Shown: positions 37,215 through 44,674 of the stretch, one piece after another
Layout: every line of letters begins with the position of its first letter
Position numbering within the stretch: the first letter of the stretch is position 1
Assembly: GCA_014728085.1 (NCBI GenBank)
Contig: WJMF01000159.1
Span: 1 to 45,623 of the forward strand
Reading direction: 5' to 3'
Source: Candidatus Zhuqueibacterota bacterium
GTDB lineage: Bacteria > Zhuqueibacterota > Zhuqueibacteria > Residuimicrobiales > Oceaniaggregativiventaceae
DNA length: 45,623 nt
Translations under genes and position numbers: made by a program
Notes under the pieces: generated by a model
Seen by the model: the letters and a program-made list of their open reading frames with translations, nothing else
Told to the model about the DNA's origin: nothing
The model's database searches: none

Positions 37215-38171
37215 ATGAAATTAAAAGATCTCTATGTCGGACTGGATCTCGGTGGTACGTTTACCAAATACGCTGTCGGTACGGCAGACGGGTTTCTGCT
37301 TTATCATAACAAAAAACGCTCCATGTCCGATAAAGGACAATCAGAAATTTTCAATAATATTTTTGCACTCATCGAGGAATTGCAGGAAAAGGCAAAAGAG
37401 CTGCAGGGAGAAATAAAGGCAATCGGGTTCGGCAGTCCCGGTGCGATCAACTTTGATGAGGGCAGACTCATCGGTAGTACGCCAAACATAAAATCATGGA
37501 CGGATGCTGATATTCGCGGAAATATTGAATCAAAATTTAATCTTCCCACCTGGGTGGATAACGATGCCAATGTTATGGTATTTGCTGAAGCACGCCAGGG
37601 AGCTGCAAAAGGGGAAAAAAATGTCACCGCTCTGACGCTGGGAACCGGCATCGGTGGAGGGGTTTTGATCAATAATCAGGTGTACCGGGGAGATCATTTT
37701 GCCGGTTCAGAGCTGGGACATATGAGTATCAATTTTAATGGTCCGCGATGTGACTGCGGCGGGATTGGCTGTATTGAACAGTATGCTTCTGCTCCGGCTA
37801 TGGAGAGAAACTATGAGAAAAAGCTCAGTATGGCCAAAAAATCCATACCGAATGACCTGTCAACTGTGACCATATTTGACCGTGCCGCAGAAGGGGAAAA
37901 AGAAGCCATCGATACCATAGACGATACGGCCATTTACCTGGGAACGGCGTTGGCGAATATCGCAAACATTTTTAATCCTGCCGTTATTGTCATCGGCGGT
38001 GGTGTGTCTGCTGCCGGAGAGGTCTTTATCGATAAAATTGATGCTGAAATGCGGCGTCGCGCAATGCCGCCCAGTGTCAGGCATCTCAGAGTCGTGGCGG
38101 CAAAACTCGGCAATTCGGCCGGCATGATCGGGGCCATCAGCCTGGCGGCCGAGATGTACGCAAAAAGATAA
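37215..38171 (+). CDS. ROK-family sugar kinase (probable glucokinase)
   Basis: A 318-residue ATP-dependent sugar kinase of the ROK family. The phosphate-binding motif DLGGTFTKYAVG is at the N-terminus; the catalytic DNDANVMVFAEA region with Asp near 116 follows, then TLGTGIGGGV. The ROK zinc motif is complete, with ELGHMSI ... CDCGGIGCIEQYAS providing His and three Cys. No helix-turn-helix precedes the kinase, so it is an enzyme, not a NagC-type repressor. Glucokinase is the likeliest activity. Confidence 0.87.
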   Translation: MKLKDLYVGLDLGGTFTKYAVGTADGFLLYHNKKRSMSDKGQSEIFNNIFALIEELQEKAKELQGEIKAIGFGSPGAINFDEGRLIGSTPNIKSWTDADIRGNIESKFNLPTWVDNDANVMVFAEARQGAAKGEKNVTALTLGTGIGGGVLINNQVYRGDHFAGSELGHMSINFNGPRCDCGGIGCIEQYASAPAMERNYEKKLSMAKKSIPNDLSTVTIFDRAAEGEKEAIDTIDDTAIYLGTALANIANIFNPAVIVIGGGVSAAGEVFIDKIDAEMRRRAMPPSVRHLRVVAAKLGNSAGMIGAISLAAEMYAKR

Positions 38172-38210
38172 AATATACGCGTAAAAATTTCTTGTTTTAT
38201 TTAAGAAAAA

Positions 38211-38228
38211 ATGATAACTTGTTATCAT
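38211..38228 (+). promoter_or_regulatory. Perfect 18-base palindrome upstream of the his leader (operator candidate)
   Basis: ATGATAAC-TT-GTTATCAT is an inverted repeat of 8-base arms with a two-base centre, 39 bases after the ROK gene and 22 before the leader ATG. It overlaps the only plausible -10 regions (TATCAT 38223-38228; TAACTT 38215-38220, which is 17 bases after TTGTTT 38192-38197). A repressor bound there would block the his promoter. There is no T run, so it is not a terminator. Confidence 0.5.
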
Positions 38229-38250
38229 ATTCACCAAGAGTAAGGACCGT

Positions 38251-38322
38251 ATGTTTCAACAATTTCCGCATAACCACCATCATTTGCTAACCTATCCGTT
38301 TAAATCAGGTGGAAATTTATAA
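38251..38322 (+). CDS. hisL: His operon leader peptide
   Basis: A 23-codon frame starts at ATG 38251 with TAAGGA (38241-38246) just upstream and ends at TAA 38320-38322. It begins MFQQFPHNHHH: four histidine codons (7, 9, 10, 11; bases 38269-38283) occur within five positions. It is followed by an intrinsic terminator and then hisG. The peptide itself is not expected to have a function; its translation rate would report charged tRNA-His. The name is by analogy with HisL of enteric bacteria; there is no sequence homology beyond the histidine run. Confidence 0.82.
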   Translation: MFQQFPHNHHHLLTYPFKSGGNL

Positions 38323-38375
38323 CTTTTTAATCAGAACAGAAAGAGCCCACCTGGTTTACGGTGGGCTTTTTTTTT
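38274..38375 (+). promoter_or_regulatory. Histidine-operon transcription attenuator
   Basis: Three mutually exclusive pairings can be drawn. Segment A, CCACC (38274-38278) plus ATTT (38282-38285), lies on the histidine codons and can pair with segment B (AAAT 38302-38305, GGTGG 38308-38312). Segment B (38302-38312) can instead pair with CCACCTGGTTT (38347-38357) over 11 bases with one G-U, which breaks the terminator. A ribosome stalled at the histidine codons would cover A and leave B free for antitermination. A ribosome finishing at the stop (38320-38322) would cover B and let the terminator form. Directly seen: the complementarities and codon positions. Inferred: the mechanism. Confidence 0.82.
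38344..38375 (+). terminator. Intrinsic terminator of the his attenuator
   Basis: An eight-base perfect stem AGCCCACC / GGTGGGCT with an eight-base loop is followed by nine T residues. It lies 21 bases after the leader stop and ends 19 bases before the hisG start codon. Confidence 0.93.
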
Positions 38376-38393
38376 ATCCAGGGAGGTGTACTT

Positions 38394-39287
38394 TTGAATT
38401 GGAACGATATTGATGACAATGTTCTCAAAATTGGATTGCCAAAGGGTAGTTTACAGGATGCCACCTTTCGTCTGCTGGCCAAAGCCGGCTTTCATTTTTC
38501 CGTATCGCACAGATCCTATTTCCCCTCCATCGATGACGATGAAATTCAGGGCACCCTGATCAGAGCTCAGGAAATCGCCAAATATGTTGAAAACGGCGTC
38601 TTTGATGTCGGCTTGACGGGCAAGGACTGGATTCTGGAAACTGCATCGGATGTCATCGAAATCACAGAATTGACCTATGCCAAATCCACTTCCCGGCCGG
38701 TACGATGGGTTTTGGCTGTGCCTAATGATTCTCCGGTTAAATCGGTGAAAGATTTGCAGGGCAAGCGTATCGCTACCGAAGTGGTAAATATTACAAAAAA
38801 TTACCTGGCCGAACATCGGGTGGAAGCAAGCGTTGAATTTTCCTGGGGGGCCACGGAGGTCAAGGCCCCGACGCTGGTGGATGCTATCGTCGAAGTGACT
38901 GAAACGGGTTCTTCATTGAGAGCCAATAACCTGCGCATTATCGATACCCTGCTCGTATCCAGAACCATGTTGATTGCCAACAAAAGGTCCTGGCAGACGC
39001 CCGAGAAAAAGGAAAAAATCGAAAACCTGACCATGTTGCTCAAAGGAGCGGTAGAATCGGAAGGATTGGTCGGATTAAAGATGAATGTGCCGAAAGAAAA
39101 GCTTGATTTGGTGATGAAACAGCTGCCGTCGATGAAAAACCCAACCATCTCGCCGCTATATGATAACAAATGGATGGCGGTTGAAACCATTATCTCGGAA
39201 AAAGAGGTGAGATCTCTGATTCCCTCTCTCAAAAGAGCGGGTGCTCAAGATATAATTGAATACCCATTAAATAAGGTGATATATTGA
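38394..39287 (+). CDS. hisG: ATP phosphoribosyltransferase, long form
   Basis: First enzyme of histidine synthesis, joining ATP and PRPP. The 297-residue protein is the long HisG form: the catalytic part ([16 protein letters not shown], the PRPP loop near EVTETGSS) is followed by a C-terminal ACT-like regulatory domain of about 75 residues, so no HisZ partner is needed and feedback inhibition by histidine is expected. The frame opens at a GTG (38361) inside the terminator stem. The real start is probably TTG 38394, with GGGAGG (38381-38386) seven bases upstream; no ATG is suitably placed. Confidence 0.93.
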
Positions 39288-39288
39288 T

Positions 39289-40575
39289 ATGGAAATGAAA
39301 ATTATTACGGATCAGCAGATTCCGGAATTTATAAAGCGTTTTGAAGAAAGACGCGGCGGAGTCGTGGAAGAGGTCGAAGGAACGGTTAGGACGATTATCG
39401 ATAATATCAAAAAAGAGCAGGATTGTGCCCTCTTTAAATACGCCAAAGCCCTGGACGGTACCGATCTGAAGCAACACCCCATTCAGGTAAGCCGGGATGA
39501 GCTGGAGAGCGCTTATCTTTCCGTCGAGTCTTCCCTGCGCCACGTTTTACTCGATGCAAGGGATAATATCAGAAAATTTCACGAGAAGGGGTTGTCGCGA
39601 TCCTGGCTGAGTTGGGAAGAAGATGGCGTTTTGCTCGGTCAGCGTATGATACCCCTGCAGCGCGTTGGAGTGTATGTGCCGGGTGGTCGTGCCGCCTATC
39701 CTTCGTCTCTGTTGATGGGAGTCATACCGGCCCAGGTTGCCGGAGTTAAGGAGATCGCTGTTGTGACCCCGAGTAATTCGGAAGGGCATATCAATCCGAT
39801 TATTTTGGCCACCGCGCATCTCCTCAATATCGACAAGGTTTATCGTATCGGCGGTGCTCATGCGATCGCCGCTTTGGCCCTGGGAACGCAAAGCATCCCC
39901 CGGGTTGATAAAATCGTTGGTCCCGGTAATATCTACGTCGCAACCGCAAAAAAAATGCTCTATGGCAGTGTCGGCATCGATATGGTCGCCGGTCCGAGCG
40001 AAGTGGTCATCATTGCTGACCACCAGGCCGAAGCGGATTTTGTCGCTGCAGATTTGCTTGCGCAGGCTGAACACGACCCGCTTGCCTCTTCCATACTGAT
40101 CACCGATAATGCAGATATGGCAAAACAGGTTTCCAAAGCCGTTTCCAGACAATTCGACAGCCTTCGGCGCCAGTCTATATTGGAAAATTCACTTAGTGAA
40201 TATGGTGCCATTATACTGGCCGACTCTGTGAACGCGTGCGTTGAGCTGTGCAATCAACTTGCACCAGAGCACCTCGGTCTTCACGTCACGGATCCGTGGC
40301 AGCTGAGCGGACGAATACAAAATGCCGGCGCAATTTTTCTCGGTTCCTATTCGCCGGAATCCGTAGGTGATTACTGGGCGGGCCCCAATCATGTATTGCC
40401 GACCAATGGCTCGGCTCGCTTTTTTTCGCCACTCAATGCCAACGATTTCCTGAAAATGAGCAGTCTGGTCAGCTATAGTAAACAGGCAATGAGCCGATAC
40501 GGACAAAAGATTATTGATCTCGCCAACTCGGAAGGACTGGACGCACATGCAAACGCCATCAAAATCAGGATATGA
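39289..40575 (+). CDS. hisD: Histidinol dehydrogenase
   Basis: Catalyses the last two steps, oxidising histidinol to histidine with NAD+ and zinc. The 428-residue length is normal. Motifs visible include VYVPGGRAAYPSSLLMG, GPGNIYVATAKK, AGPSEVVIIAD, the zinc/catalytic region QAEHDP, and APEHLGLH with the catalytic Glu-His pair, then GPNHVLPT. It follows hisG after one base; AAGGTG at 39272-39277 is the likely ribosome site, and ATG 39295 is a possible alternative start. Confidence 0.96.
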   Translation: MEMKIITDQQIPEFIKRFEERRGGVVEEVEGTVRTIIDNIKKEQDCALFKYAKALDGTDLKQHPIQVSRDELESAYLSVESSLRHVLLDARDNIRKFHEKGLSRSWLSWEEDGVLLGQRMIPLQRVGVYVPGGRAAYPSSLLMGVIPAQVAGVKEIAVVTPSNSEGHINPIILATAHLLNIDKVYRIGGAHAIAALALGTQSIPRVDKIVGPGNIYVATAKKMLYGSVGIDMVAGPSEVVIIADHQAEADFVAADLLAQAEHDPLASSILITDNADMAKQVSKAVSRQFDSLRRQSILENSLSEYGAIILADSVNACVELCNQLAPEHLGLHVTDPWQLSGRIQNAGAIFLGSYSPESVGDYWAGPNHVLPTNGSARFFSPLNANDFLKMSSLVSYSKQAMSRYGQKIIDLANSEGLDAHANAIKIRI

Positions 40576-41638
40576 AATAAATCCGGAAGCGATTTTTAAA
40601 AAATCGGTGCTCAAAATCAAGGGATATCAATCCCCGCCGCAGAGCCACGTCAAGGCCAAACTGAACCAGAATGAAAATCCCTTTGATGTACCTTTGGAAG
40701 TGAAAGCGATGCTTGCCGACCGAATTGTCAGGCTGGCCTGGAATCGATATCCTGTGAACGAGTCTCCTGCTCTGCGCAAAAAACTGGCGGATTGGCATCA
40801 TGTTCACCCCCGACAAATATTATTGGGAAACGGCTCGAATCAGCTTTTACAAACTATTCTTTCAGCGACTGTAAATGATGGCGACAAAATCTGCTGGAGT
40901 TCGCCGACCTTTTCGCTGTTTTCGCTTTTTTCCGCCCTCTATAACGCGGTTCCTGTGGATATTCTTCAAACAAGTGACTTGCGATTTCCCTACGAGACAT
41001 TTATTGCAGGCGTTGAAAAACATCAGCCCAGAGTTACTCTGCTTTGTTCTCCCAACAATCCGACCGGCTCTGAAATAGATCTGGATTTTCTTCGAACGCT
41101 CTGTAACGCAGCATCCGGACTGGTTTTTTGGGATGAAGCCTATGCTGAATTTACCGATCAAACCGCAGTGGAATTGTTGCACCAATATTCCAATCTTGTC
41201 ATTTCCCGCACTTTTTCAAAAGCCTTCAGTCTGGCCGGATTGCGGTTTGGTTATCTTATCGCCAACAAGCCAGTCATCGAACAGCTCGAAAAAGTCAATC
41301 TACCCTATAATGTAAATATTATTACCGAAGCGGTCGTATCCGAGCTCCTGGATTGCAGGGATATTCTCTTTGAACGCGTCAATCAGATTATTGAACAGCG
41401 TCAATGGATGTATGAAAAACTTTGCCGTATACCGAAACTAAAAGTGTATCGCTCAAAAGCGAATTTTATTTTGTTTAAATGTCAACATGCGCGCTCCGTT
41501 TTTCAGACTCTGAAAAAACATGGTATCCTGGTTCGCGACGTCAGCAGCTATCCGTTACTCGACAATCACCTGCGCGTCAATGTGGGATCACCCGAAGAAA
41601 ATGAATATTTTTTAGATATTTTGCAAACTATCAGGTAA
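40547..41638 (+). CDS. hisC: Histidinol-phosphate aminotransferase
   Basis: A PLP-dependent fold-type I aminotransferase converting imidazole-acetol phosphate to histidinol phosphate. The 363-residue protein has LNQNENPFDVP near the N-terminus, GNGSNQLL, SPNNPTG, DEAYAEF and the PLP lysine in SRTFSKAFSLAGLRFGY. The chosen ATG 40547 overlaps hisD by 29 bases; the frame extends to 40514, but the extra residues lie outside the family's usual start. GGAAGGA at 40529-40535 could serve it. Confidence 0.93.
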   Translation: MQTPSKSGYEINPEAIFKKSVLKIKGYQSPPQSHVKAKLNQNENPFDVPLEVKAMLADRIVRLAWNRYPVNESPALRKKLADWHHVHPRQILLGNGSNQLLQTILSATVNDGDKICWSSPTFSLFSLFSALYNAVPVDILQTSDLRFPYETFIAGVEKHQPRVTLLCSPNNPTGSEIDLDFLRTLCNAASGLVFWDEAYAEFTDQTAVELLHQYSNLVISRTFSKAFSLAGLRFGYLIANKPVIEQLEKVNLPYNVNIITEAVVSELLDCRDILFERVNQIIEQRQWMYEKLCRIPKLKVYRSKANFILFKCQHARSVFQTLKKHGILVRDVSSYPLLDNHLRVNVGSPEENEYFLDILQTIR

Positions 41639-41642
41639 AGCG

Positions 41643-42239
41643 ATGAAATCAACACGTACAGCCACTGTTCACAGAAAAACCAGAGAGACCGATATCTATG
41701 TCAGTGTCAATCTCGATGGTAACGGTACGGCTGAAATCGAAACCGGAATCGGGTTCTTTGATCATATGCTTGATGCCTTGAGCCGCCATTCCGGAATCGA
41801 TCTTGTGGTGAAGGCCAAAGGTGATCTTGAGATCGATTGCCATCATACCGTTGAAGATGTCGGTATCGTCTTGGGTATGGCTCTGAAAAAAGCCCTGGCG
41901 GATAAAAAATCTATTATCCGGTTTGGCTTTGCCTATTGTCCGTTGGACGAAGCGCTGGCAAGAAGCGTTATCGATATCAGCGGCCGCGCCTATTTTATTT
42001 ACAATTGTGACATCGAGTTTTCTCTCATCGGCCAGTTTCCGGGTGAACTATGGCAGGAATTCCTCAGAGCCTTTACAACACATGCCGCTCTTAACCTGCA
42101 TGTGCATCTGATTTATGGAACCAACCAGCATCACATCATTGAAGCAATGGCCAAAGCCATTGCCCTCGCTCTGAAACAGGCGATCCGGATCAATCCGGGA
42201 CAGTCCGAAGTTCCGTCAACCAAAGGGGTGTTAGAATGA
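41643..42239 (+). CDS. hisB: Imidazoleglycerol-phosphate dehydratase
   Basis: Dehydrates imidazoleglycerol phosphate; a manganese enzyme. The 198-residue protein is the monofunctional form, without the N-terminal histidinol-phosphatase of enteric HisB, so the phosphatase (HisN-type or PHP-type) must be encoded elsewhere. Metal-binding histidine motifs are FFDHMLDALSRH, DCHHTVEDVGI and GTNQHHIIEA; the C-terminal STKGVL is typical. The stop overlaps the hisH start (ATGA). Confidence 0.96.
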   Translation: MKSTRTATVHRKTRETDIYVSVNLDGNGTAEIETGIGFFDHMLDALSRHSGIDLVVKAKGDLEIDCHHTVEDVGIVLGMALKKALADKKSIIRFGFAYCPLDEALARSVIDISGRAYFIYNCDIEFSLIGQFPGELWQEFLRAFTTHAALNLHVHLIYGTNQHHIIEAMAKAIALALKQAIRINPGQSEVPSTKGVLE

Positions 42240-42838
42240 TATGTCTGATCGATTATGGAGCCGGAAATCTTTTCAGTGTTCAGAAAGCCGTAGAATTTCT
42301 CGGTTATCGCCCCCGTATCAGCAATCGTGCTGCTGATCTTGAAAAAGCGGATAAAATCATCTTCCCCGGTGTCGGTTCGTTCGGCCGAGCAGTCGGAAAC
42401 CTGCAACAGGCGGCACTCGGACCGAAAATCAGAGAGGTGGTTGATGCCGGAACGCCGTTTTTAGGTATCTGTCTGGGTTTGCAGCTTTTTTTTGCCCAAA
42501 GTGAGGAGAGCCCGAATGTCCGGGGTCTCGATCTGGTGGCCGGGAGGGTTAAAAAATTTCAAAACGGTTTAAAAATTCCCCATTTGGGCTGGAATTCAGT
42601 CTCACAATGCAATACAAAAAGTCCATTGTGGCATGAGATTCCCGAACACGTTTATTGCTATTTTGCTCACTCTTACTATATCGAGCCGGATGATCCGAAT
42701 CTCATTATTGCCACCTGTGACTATGGTGGTGATTATCCGGTTGCTATACAAAGGAATAATTTGTTCGGATTGCAATTTCATCCGGAAAAATCGCAAAAAT
42801 GGGGCCTGGAAATCTTGCATAATTTTTTGAAACTATAG
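42236..42838 (+). CDS. hisH: Imidazole glycerol phosphate synthase, glutaminase subunit
   Basis: Glutamine amidotransferase that feeds ammonia to HisF. The 200-residue protein has the N-terminal DYGAGNLFSVQKA, PGVGSFG, the nucleophile Cys79 in GICLGLQL, and the His182/Glu184 pair in QFHPEKSQ. It is followed nine bases later by hisA; its partner hisF is one gene further on. This H-A-F order is the usual one. Confidence 0.96.
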   Translation: MICLIDYGAGNLFSVQKAVEFLGYRPRISNRAADLEKADKIIFPGVGSFGRAVGNLQQAALGPKIREVVDAGTPFLGICLGLQLFFAQSEESPNVRGLDLVAGRVKKFQNGLKIPHLGWNSVSQCNTKSPLWHEIPEHVYCYFAHSYYIEPDDPNLIIATCDYGGDYPVAIQRNNLFGLQFHPEKSQKWGLEILHNFLKL

Positions 42839-42847
42839 GAGTAAATC

Positions 42848-43576
42848 GTGATCGTTATACCTGCAATAGATCTACTCGATGGGCGCTGTGTGCGCTTAAC
42901 GCAGGGTAAAGAAAAAGATTCTACCGTTTACAGCCATGATCCTGCTGAGATAGCACTGCAATTTCAAAAACAGGGTGCGGATTATCTGCATCTGGTCAAT
43001 CTCGACGGGGCTTTTGGCCGTGCGAATCGAAACATAGCGTCAATCAAAAAAATACTCGGGACTGTAGATATACCGGTGGAGCTGGGAGGCGGTCTGCGTT
43101 ACTATGAAGACGCTTGTAAGTGGATAGAGCTCGGCATTACACGCGTTATTTTGGGTACGCTGGCCGTATCTCATCCGCTTATCGTAAAGCAATTGATCGA
43201 TTCCTTTGGCCCTGAACGCGTCGTTGCCGCTATCGATGCCAAAGATAACCGCGTTATGGTCAAAGGCTGGACAGAAGCGACGTCGTTCTCCCCCGTTGAA
43301 TTGGGCAGGCACCTCGATAACCTGGGCCTGCAACGCATCATATACACCGATATTTCCCGAGACGGTGTGTTGAAAGGACCGAATTTGAGTGCTGTGGATG
43401 ATCTTGCCCGGCAACTCGAAATGCCGACCATCGCATCCGGCGGCTTTGCTTCTTTAGAGCATTTTTCTCAGCTATCATCGCTGAATAATGCATATATTGA
43501 AGGTGCCATCGTCGGCAAAGCACTCTATGAAAACAAAATCGAGTTACCGGATATTGTCAAACTTTTGGAATCCTGA
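42848..43576 (+). CDS. hisA: Phosphoribosylformimino-5-aminoimidazole carboxamide ribotide isomerase
   Basis: A (beta/alpha)8-barrel isomerase, 242 residues. It has the two catalytic aspartates Asp8 (IPAIDLLDG) and Asp130 (AAIDAKDN), and phosphate-binding glycine motifs GGGLR and ASGGFAS. The start is GTG at 42848, preceded by AGGAG at 42837-42841. The N-terminal [13 protein letters not shown] distinguishes it from the homologous HisF. Confidence 0.96.
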
Positions 43577-43578
43577 TT

Positions 43579-44337
43579 ATGTTGGCCAAGCGAATTATAC
43601 CTTGTCTCGATGTCAAAGACGGACGTGTTGTAAAGGGCATAAATTTTCTAAATCTGGTTGATGCCGGCGATCCTGTGGAACAGGCCAAATATTATAATGT
43701 GCATGGCGCTGATGAGCTCGTTTTTCTTGATATCACCGCTTCATCCGAACATCGGGATATTATGATCGATGTCGTGCGCCGTACCGCTGAACAGGTCTTT
43801 ATGCCTTTAACGGTCGGTGGCGGAGTTCGCAGCGCAGAGGATGCCTTCAAACTGCTTAAAAGCGGTGCCGATAAAGTTACCATGAATACCGCTGCAGTAC
43901 TGAATCCTGATCTGGTGAAAGAATGCGCGGACCGTTTCGGCAGTCAGGCCACGGTTGTGGCCATCGATGCAAAGCGCCGCAAGGATAAAAAATGGTACGT
44001 ATATACCTACGGCGGACGAACAGCGACCGAACTGGATGCCCTCGAGTGGGCTGGTATGGTCGAAGAACTGGGTGCAGGTGAAATTTTACTCACCTCTATG
44101 GACAGAGATGGTACGAAATCCGGCTATGATCTTGATCTCACCAGAACGATCGCTTTATCCGTTTCCATTCCGGTAATCGCTTCCGGAGGATGTGGCAGCC
44201 TTGAACATATATACGACGTTTTTGCAAACGCACAAGCTGATGCCGCGCTTGCTGCGTCAATTTTTCATTATCGCGAAAATTCCATCCAAGAGGTGAAAAA
44301 CTATCTGAGAGAGAGGAATGTACATGTCAGACATTGA
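43579..44337 (+). CDS. hisF: Imidazole glycerol phosphate synthase, cyclase subunit
   Basis: A (beta/alpha)8-barrel cyclase of 252 residues that uses ammonia from HisH to form imidazoleglycerol phosphate and AICAR. It has catalytic Asp11 ([15 protein letters not shown]) and Asp130 (VAIDAKRR), with phosphate sites VGGGVRS and ASGGCGS. It begins two bases after hisA and overlaps the start of hisI by 14 bases. Confidence 0.97.
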
Positions 44338-44674
44338 ACGCCTAGAGCAAGAGGACCTTTTCAAAGAGCTAAAATATAATGAACAGGGATTGATTCCCGC
44401 GATCATTCAGGATTGGCAGGATGGCGCAGTTTTGATGCTGGGGTATATGAATGAAAAAAGCCTTGAAACAACGCTGCAAAGCGGAAAGATCACCTTCTGG
44501 AGCCGTTCGAGAAAAAAATACTGGACCAAAGGAGAAACTTCCGGTAATTTTTTGCTTTTAAAAGAGATCTTTACAGACTGCGACAAGGATACAATATTGA
44601 TCAAAGCCGAAGCCAAAGGACCAACGTGTCATACCGGCAAACGGAGTTGCTTTTCCTGGAAGGTGACATCATAA
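44324..44674 (+). CDS. hisI: Phosphoribosyl-AMP cyclohydrolase
   Basis: Zinc-dependent hydrolase opening the adenine ring of PR-AMP. The 116-residue protein has [33 protein letters not shown] and the zinc cysteines in FTDCDKD and [12 protein letters not shown]. Only the cyclohydrolase domain is present; the PR-ATP pyrophosphatase (HisE) domain fused to it in many bacteria is missing and no separate hisE follows. GAGAGG at 44311-44316 fits ATG 44324 rather than ATG 44318. It is the last gene of the his operon; the following 215 bases hold no certain terminator. Confidence 0.94.

Follow-up and report, generated by a model that had tools for sequence, protein, structure and literature searches.

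A putative ribosome-mediated histidine attenuator upstream of hisGDCBHAFI in the phylum KSB1 and similar candidate leaders upstream of other amino acid genes

The best-documented cases of ribosome-mediated attenuation are from Proteobacteria, Actinobacteria, and a small number of Firmicutes. The his leader of E. coli and Salmonella contains seven His codons, compared with four in the leader examined here, which lies in a 45,623-nucleotide stretch of contig WJMF01000159.1 (the whole stretch is referred to as the window). As in the his attenuator of E. coli and Salmonella (Rfam RF00514, His_leader), a leader with clustered His codons and a terminator precede the his operon, and a segment at the end of the leader pairs with the 5' arm of the terminator. 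The present element differs from that attenuator in its simpler, three-segment pairing and in the phylum that carries it. It also produced no match to RF00514 within positions 38150 to 38450, even at E values up to 10, and is thus not Rfam's His_leader. An earlier note on this DNA had suggested that the attenuator may have evolved independently; the lack of a His_leader match agrees with that suggestion and falls short of proof.

His-leader attenuators have been reported in the Firmicutes, namely in the Bacillus cereus group, in Peptostreptococcaceae and Lutispora, and in Erysipelotrichales, likewise without a match to RF00514 (PMC9413887), and attenuators of hisZ and hisS are known in bacilli (PMC2965389). 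Before the hisS and hisZ cases of bacilli, leader-peptide systems were known only in Proteobacteria and Actinobacteria (Naville and Gautheret 2010; PMC2965389). The element described here resembles the Firmicutes His-leaders in its short leader, its terminator and antiterminator, the missing RF00514 match, and its occurrence also upstream of hisZ; the Firmicutes leaders, likened to it by description rather than by alignment, have runs of three to five His codons and belong to a different phylum. The stalling logic is also that of the enterobacterial trp, phe, thr, and ilv attenuators and the actinobacterial trp, cys, and leu attenuators (PMC1262725), to which KSB1 offers candidate Trp, Phe/Tyr, Thr, Ile, and Cys counterparts. 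Unlike those attenuators, several of the KSB1 elements resemble the GGTGGG and GCCCAC segments of the his element, a likeness that the search itself favored. No literature report of such attenuators in KSB1 was found, and older comparative papers may name further groups. The earlier wording, a little-described attenuator, is fair for KSB1. His attenuators outside the Gammaproteobacteria had already been reported in Firmicutes (PMC9413887, PMC2965389). The mechanism is of a known kind; what is new is the phylum-wide scope and the presence of other amino acids, and phylum-wide attenuation in KSB1 looks undescribed so far.

Anatomy of the leader and its alternative pairings

The element lies directly upstream of the first gene of the hisGDCBHAFI operon, and its features are listed in Table 1. 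A base-by-base check of the anatomy recovered the 23-codon leader open reading frame (ORF) of the earlier note, from the ATG at 38251 to the TAA at 38320 to 38322, with His at codons 7, 9, 10, and 11 (positions 38269 to 38271 and 38275 to 38283). The pattern CAY-N3-CAY-CAY-CAY matched 35 times on both strands of the 5.19-Mb genome, and about 5 × 10⁻⁴ matches were expected on the right strand within the ~150 nt upstream of hisG. Synonymous differences exceeded nonsynonymous differences at the His codons, with P values from 4 × 10⁻⁷ to 0.29 depending on the substitution model; this excess is suggestive, though model dependent. The start of hisG is most likely the TTG at 38394, which follows a good Shine-Dalgarno sequence. 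The names of hisD to hisI were assigned by reading ORF translations rather than by an HMM scan.

The eight-pair terminator with nine T residues that had been proposed was confirmed. It has a loop of 8 nt and was more stable than shuffled sequences (Table 1); with the flanking A/T pairs included, the stem spans 12 positions at about −21 kcal/mol. The proposed antiterminator of 11 bp with one G-U pair (38302 to 38312 with 38347 to 38357) was also confirmed, and it comprises 12 bp when counted from 38301. Its 5' arm covers leader codons 17 to 21 and ends 8 nt upstream of the stop codon. The region between the His codons and the terminator was shuffled 300 times, and no shuffle paired equally well with the terminator arm. 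Segment 3 overlaps the 5' arm and the loop of the terminator, and antiterminator and terminator are mutually exclusive.

Table 1. Features of the his leader region and the downstream operon, with positions in the window
Feature	Position	Strand	Evidence
Promoter-like site, weak (TTAAGA-16-TATCAT, TG before the second hexamer)	38201..38228	+	1 found versus 0.9 expected by chance; a lead only
Shine-Dalgarno-like TAAGGA of the leader ORF	38241..38246	+	Sequence
Leader peptide ORF MFQQFPHNHHHLLTYPFKSGGNL and stop codon	38251..38322	+	His-rich ORFs in the matching place in 40 other KSB1 genomes
His codons 7 and 9 to 11, proposed stalling site	38269..38283	+	Sequence
Segment 1, proposed 5' arm of the competing hairpin, CCACC	38274..38278	+	Inside the His codon run; minimum free energy fold
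Segment 2, antiterminator 5' arm	38301..38312	+	Energy versus shuffles; covariation
Segment 3, antiterminator 3' arm	38347..38358	+	Common to the terminator 5' arm and loop; energy versus shuffles
Intrinsic terminator, stem AGCCCACC (38344-38351) with GGTGGGCT (38360-38367), T tract 38367-38375	38344..38375	+	z = −5.45 versus shuffles
Shine-Dalgarno sequence of hisG, GGGAGGTG	38381..38388	+	Sequence
hisG, ATP phosphoribosyltransferase carrying a HisG C-terminal domain, at the head of the his operon	38394..39287	+	NCBIfam TIGR00070 and TIGR03455 above cutoff
Remaining his operon, hisD-hisC-hisB-hisH-hisA-hisF-hisI, in order	39289..44674	+	ORF translations read

Folds of parts of the leader were compared, the ribosome positions being assumed as in the established trp/his model. 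With a ribosome stalled at the His codons, the stretch from 38290 to 38376 would be unoccupied, and it folded into the antiterminator (z = −3.1 versus shuffles). From 38290, the minimum free energy (MFE) structure was the antiterminator (−23.9), though the whole terminator was available, whereas from 38323, with the ribosome at the stop codon, the terminator alone was left (−21.3). These folds follow the logic of the earlier note, in which a ribosome at the leader stop (38320 to 38322) would lie over segment 2, there called segment B, and one stalled at the His codons would not occupy it. In the unoccupied whole leader, the MFE structure consisted of the terminator and the competing hairpin, in which CCACC pairs with GGUGG (38308 to 38312). 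A competing hairpin at the His codons had likewise been proposed, and its pairing is thus present in the MFE structure, but it was no better than chance against shuffles, either in the window (z = +0.29) or across related loci (z = −0.43). The competing 1:2 hairpin is unproven, with its base pairing seen and no further support obtained.

Conservation and covariation in KSB1 and beyond

By HisG, the closest named relative was bacterium UBA2214 (75% identity), whose locus matches that of a genome of the window's order (G008) without a difference over 3.9 kb. The phylum KSB1 has one class only, UBA2214 (PMC9386943). Together with the order-level kinship that we infer to UBA2214, this assigns the window to the KSB1/UBA2214 lineage, and the earlier impression that the genome belongs outside the Gammaproteobacteria proved correct.

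Conservation across KSB1 was observed directly. A His-rich leader ORF and a terminator were found upstream of hisG or hisZ-hisG in 41 KSB1 genomes, the window's included. Within the window's order, 17 of 18 relatives with readable sequence upstream of hisG carried a His-rich leader, a count that includes one leader whose start is lost at a contig end (L087) and one with only three scattered His codons (L088). The His codons were kept in 16 of the 18 (L087 counted, L088 and L101 not). Relatives with the terminator and without the His codons had been named in advance as evidence against attenuation; one of the 18 was of this type, which counts against the claim, and the 16 that keep the codons count in its favor. 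That relative, L101 (G016:C24), retains a GGGAGG/CCTTCC antiterminator and a terminator upstream of hisG together with a short ORF without His codons, and candidate readings are a decayed attenuator, a rewired attenuator, or a sequence error.

Outside the window's order, the leader was present in 19 of the 21 KSB1 genomes with HisG of the window's type; in one of the two exceptions (L111), hisG is internal to the operon rather than first. Leaders also accompanied a distant HisG in two KSB1 genomes (L134, 34% identity; L135, 30% identity) and were found where hisZ comes first (L248 and L249), and KSB1 families with short or distant HisG were mostly without a leader. Of the 77 HisG loci whose labels name other phyla, 76 had no leader, and horizontal spread of leader and HisG to other phyla was rejected on this count. 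The leader trait required 3 changes on the HisG tree, compared to 29 with shuffled labels, which indicates that the leader has for the most part been passed on together with the KSB1 his operon. The exceptional locus from another phylum, L005 (JAKUSY010000444.1, labelled Planctomycetota), has a His-rich leader (MTKTLHVFHHPIHHHLRHSPRRGSQVC) and a terminator upstream of hisG; its HisG groups with that of a leaderless planctomycete, and its antiterminator is weak.

Covariation was judged by comparing own with swapped antiterminator arms, in place of column-wise covariation on MAFFT alignment A1, which was dropped because the window row was shifted by one column at the GGTGG core. Own minus swapped arms differed by −2.92 kcal/mol (n = 36 loci; −0.10 ± 0.34 when the 5' region was shuffled within each locus), and the mean pairing of own arms was beaten in 0 of 20,000 permutations. 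The test is conservative, because the arms of near relatives are interchangeable. The 5' arm usually contained GGTGGG, GGGAGG, or AGTGGG, and the terminator arm contained the matching CCCACC, CCTTCC, or CCCACT/CCCGCT. By a simple duplex measure, the antiterminator was no better than shuffles at L086, L089, L090 (family f2), L106, and L005. Of the compensatory changes expected in both hairpins upstream of hisG in relatives, those in the antiterminator arms were found, whereas the competing hairpin was unsupported.

Candidate attenuators for other amino acids

A covariance model (R1), as suggested in the earlier note, was made from 22 his elements and run on 82 KSB1 genomes, in which it found cognate leaders upstream of other amino acid genes. 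These were Trp leaders upstream of TrpB-like genes (11 loci) and trpE (5 loci), Phe/Tyr leaders upstream of DAHP synthase or chorismate mutase genes (9 loci), Ile leaders upstream of ileS (4 loci), Cys-rich leaders upstream of cysteine synthase genes (2 loci, L305 at G045:C121 and L291 at G033:C103), a Thr/Ile/Met-rich leader upstream of asd (1 locus, L253 at G025:C2), and a Met/Cys leader (MISMCMCMC) upstream of an O-acetylhomoserine sulfhydrylase gene (1 locus). Representatives of the downstream genes were confirmed by NCBIfam, and the others were recognized on reading by sequence similarity; about half of the weak R1 matches were ordinary terminators. The non-his antiterminators covaried (−3.45 versus 0.07 ± 0.42; n = 17). 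The regulatory codons follow the downstream gene, and the stalling mechanism is thereby independently supported. The likeness among the elements is partly a selection effect, because R1 retrieves only similar ones.

Besides the his leader, the window's genome has Trp leaders (trpE and the TrpB-like gene) and a Phe/Tyr leader (chorismate mutase/DAHP synthase). When the regions upstream of trpE were inspected directly across the window's order, leaders with WWW or WWWW were seen in seven genomes, the window's own included, at ~250 to 340 nt upstream of trpE (L156 in the window's genome, contig C101, and L151 to L154, L157, and L158). The window's own trpE leader (MIQNWWWPAAFDAM) came from this inspection and was missed by R1. 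Trp-rich leaders with a terminator and an antiterminator upstream of the TrpB-like gene included one in the window's genome (L268, C97:7488-7570; MQSLRYKQPDQMRDSWWGWCNGIVYRSGIGMF) and further ones at L257, L267, L289, L292, L298, L300, L310, L311, L314, and L322. The Phe/Tyr-rich leader of the window's genome, upstream of chorismate mutase/DAHP synthase (L269, C9:34348-34469; MKRKLKIFNYFYYYDLFSVVEGER), has further counterparts upstream of either gene at L261, L265, L297, L302, L307, L313, L318, and L321.

The Ile-rich leaders of ileS (L252, L254, L266, and L309; e.g., MSIISIIIRIITIMIRPPLLAEGL) were accompanied by a terminator and a strong antiterminator. A Met/Cys-rich leader (MNQLNIKNIAIMISMCMCMCQYSKMFGRRSG) with a terminator and an antiterminator was seen upstream of the O-acetylhomoserine sulfhydrylase gene at L264 (G038:C70), which is a possible Met or Cys attenuator represented by a single case. 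No literature counterpart was found for either the Ile leader of ileS or the Met/Cys leader of O-acetylhomoserine sulfhydrylase. Trp/Tyr-rich leaders (YGWRWWWWTAF; HHWFWYWYY) occurred at L303 (G052:C742), L319 (G022:C34), and L301 (G027:C11), where the ORF downstream had no Pfam match and appeared ParB-like by eye. Upstream of ilvB, Leu/Ile/Val-rich ORFs with a common II.L.LLL pattern were present in the window's genome (L176, C240) and at L173, L174, L178, and L180.

Proposed mechanism and rival explanations

A ribosome-mediated transcription attenuator very probably couples the charging of histidyl-tRNA to transcription of the his operon. The his/trp attenuation logic put forward in the earlier note is supported by conservation across the phylum, covariation of the antiterminator, and cognate codons in other operons. 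A ribosome would translate the leader as RNA polymerase transcribes it. When charged tRNA-His is ample, the ribosome would reach the stop codon and cover segment 2, leaving segment 3 free to form the terminator, and transcription would end upstream of hisG. With scarce charged tRNA-His, the ribosome would stall at codons 7 to 11 with segment 2 beyond it, and the free segment 2 would capture segment 3, so that no terminator would form and hisGDCBHAFI would be transcribed. The co-transcriptional timing, the ribosome footprints, the read-through, and the role of the 1:2 hairpin are what we infer in this scheme.

It is very unlikely that the terminator belongs to another kind of attenuator, one governed by a protein, by a riboswitch, or by a T-box, in which the His codons are incidental. 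L101, with its terminator and antiterminator and no His codons, would fit such control, but His runs persist in almost every relative, and the regulatory codons of other operons agree with the gene that each precedes. Moreover, no Rfam family reached its gathering score in the window, and the 18 related loci gave one tRNA only; the T-box covariance model had no match in the window at the gathering or a relaxed threshold, nor in the 18 related loci. Matches to Rfam at relaxed thresholds were at chance level, to unrelated terminator-bearing sRNAs and leaders, and were rejected. Repression by HisR, a TrpR-family protein with a 20-bp operator, would be compatible with attenuation.

Less probable still is that the terminator marks the 3' end of the ROK-kinase gene that lies upstream, with the short ORF being noise and the hisG promoter lying downstream of the terminator. 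The end of the kinase gene at 38171, 80 nt upstream of the leader, and the closeness of the T tract to hisG (about 20 nt) would suit this arrangement; however, the T tract and the start of hisG are 18 nt apart (38376 to 38393), too little for a promoter, and covarying arms and His-rich ORFs recur upstream of hisG through KSB1. Just as improbable is a leader that does not work through termination of transcription but through translational coupling, reinitiation, or a stable His-rich peptide. In favor of this reading, reinitiation after a leader ORF can enhance translation of the gene that follows when ~10 nt separate stop and start (PMC4833913). Against it, the leader stop lies 71 nt from hisG with a strong intrinsic terminator in between, and the peptide is free to vary outside the His codons while the conserved part is the RNA pairing.

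Beyond histidine, attenuation is likely a general form of amino acid sensing in KSB1, in which a his-like chassis with exchanged codons would control His, Trp, Phe/Tyr, Ile, Cys, Thr, and Met/Cys genes, including those behind the ileS and O-acetylhomoserine sulfhydrylase leaders. The attenuator proposed here would extend the known range of ribosome-mediated attenuation to an uncultured phylum, with an element that is absent from Rfam. The approximately 40 his attenuators form a comparative set, and the presence of other codons on similar elements upstream of cognate genes would make amino acid regulation predictable in unculturable genomes. It can now be asked whether a new attenuator originates when codons are exchanged on an element already present or whether each one arises afresh.
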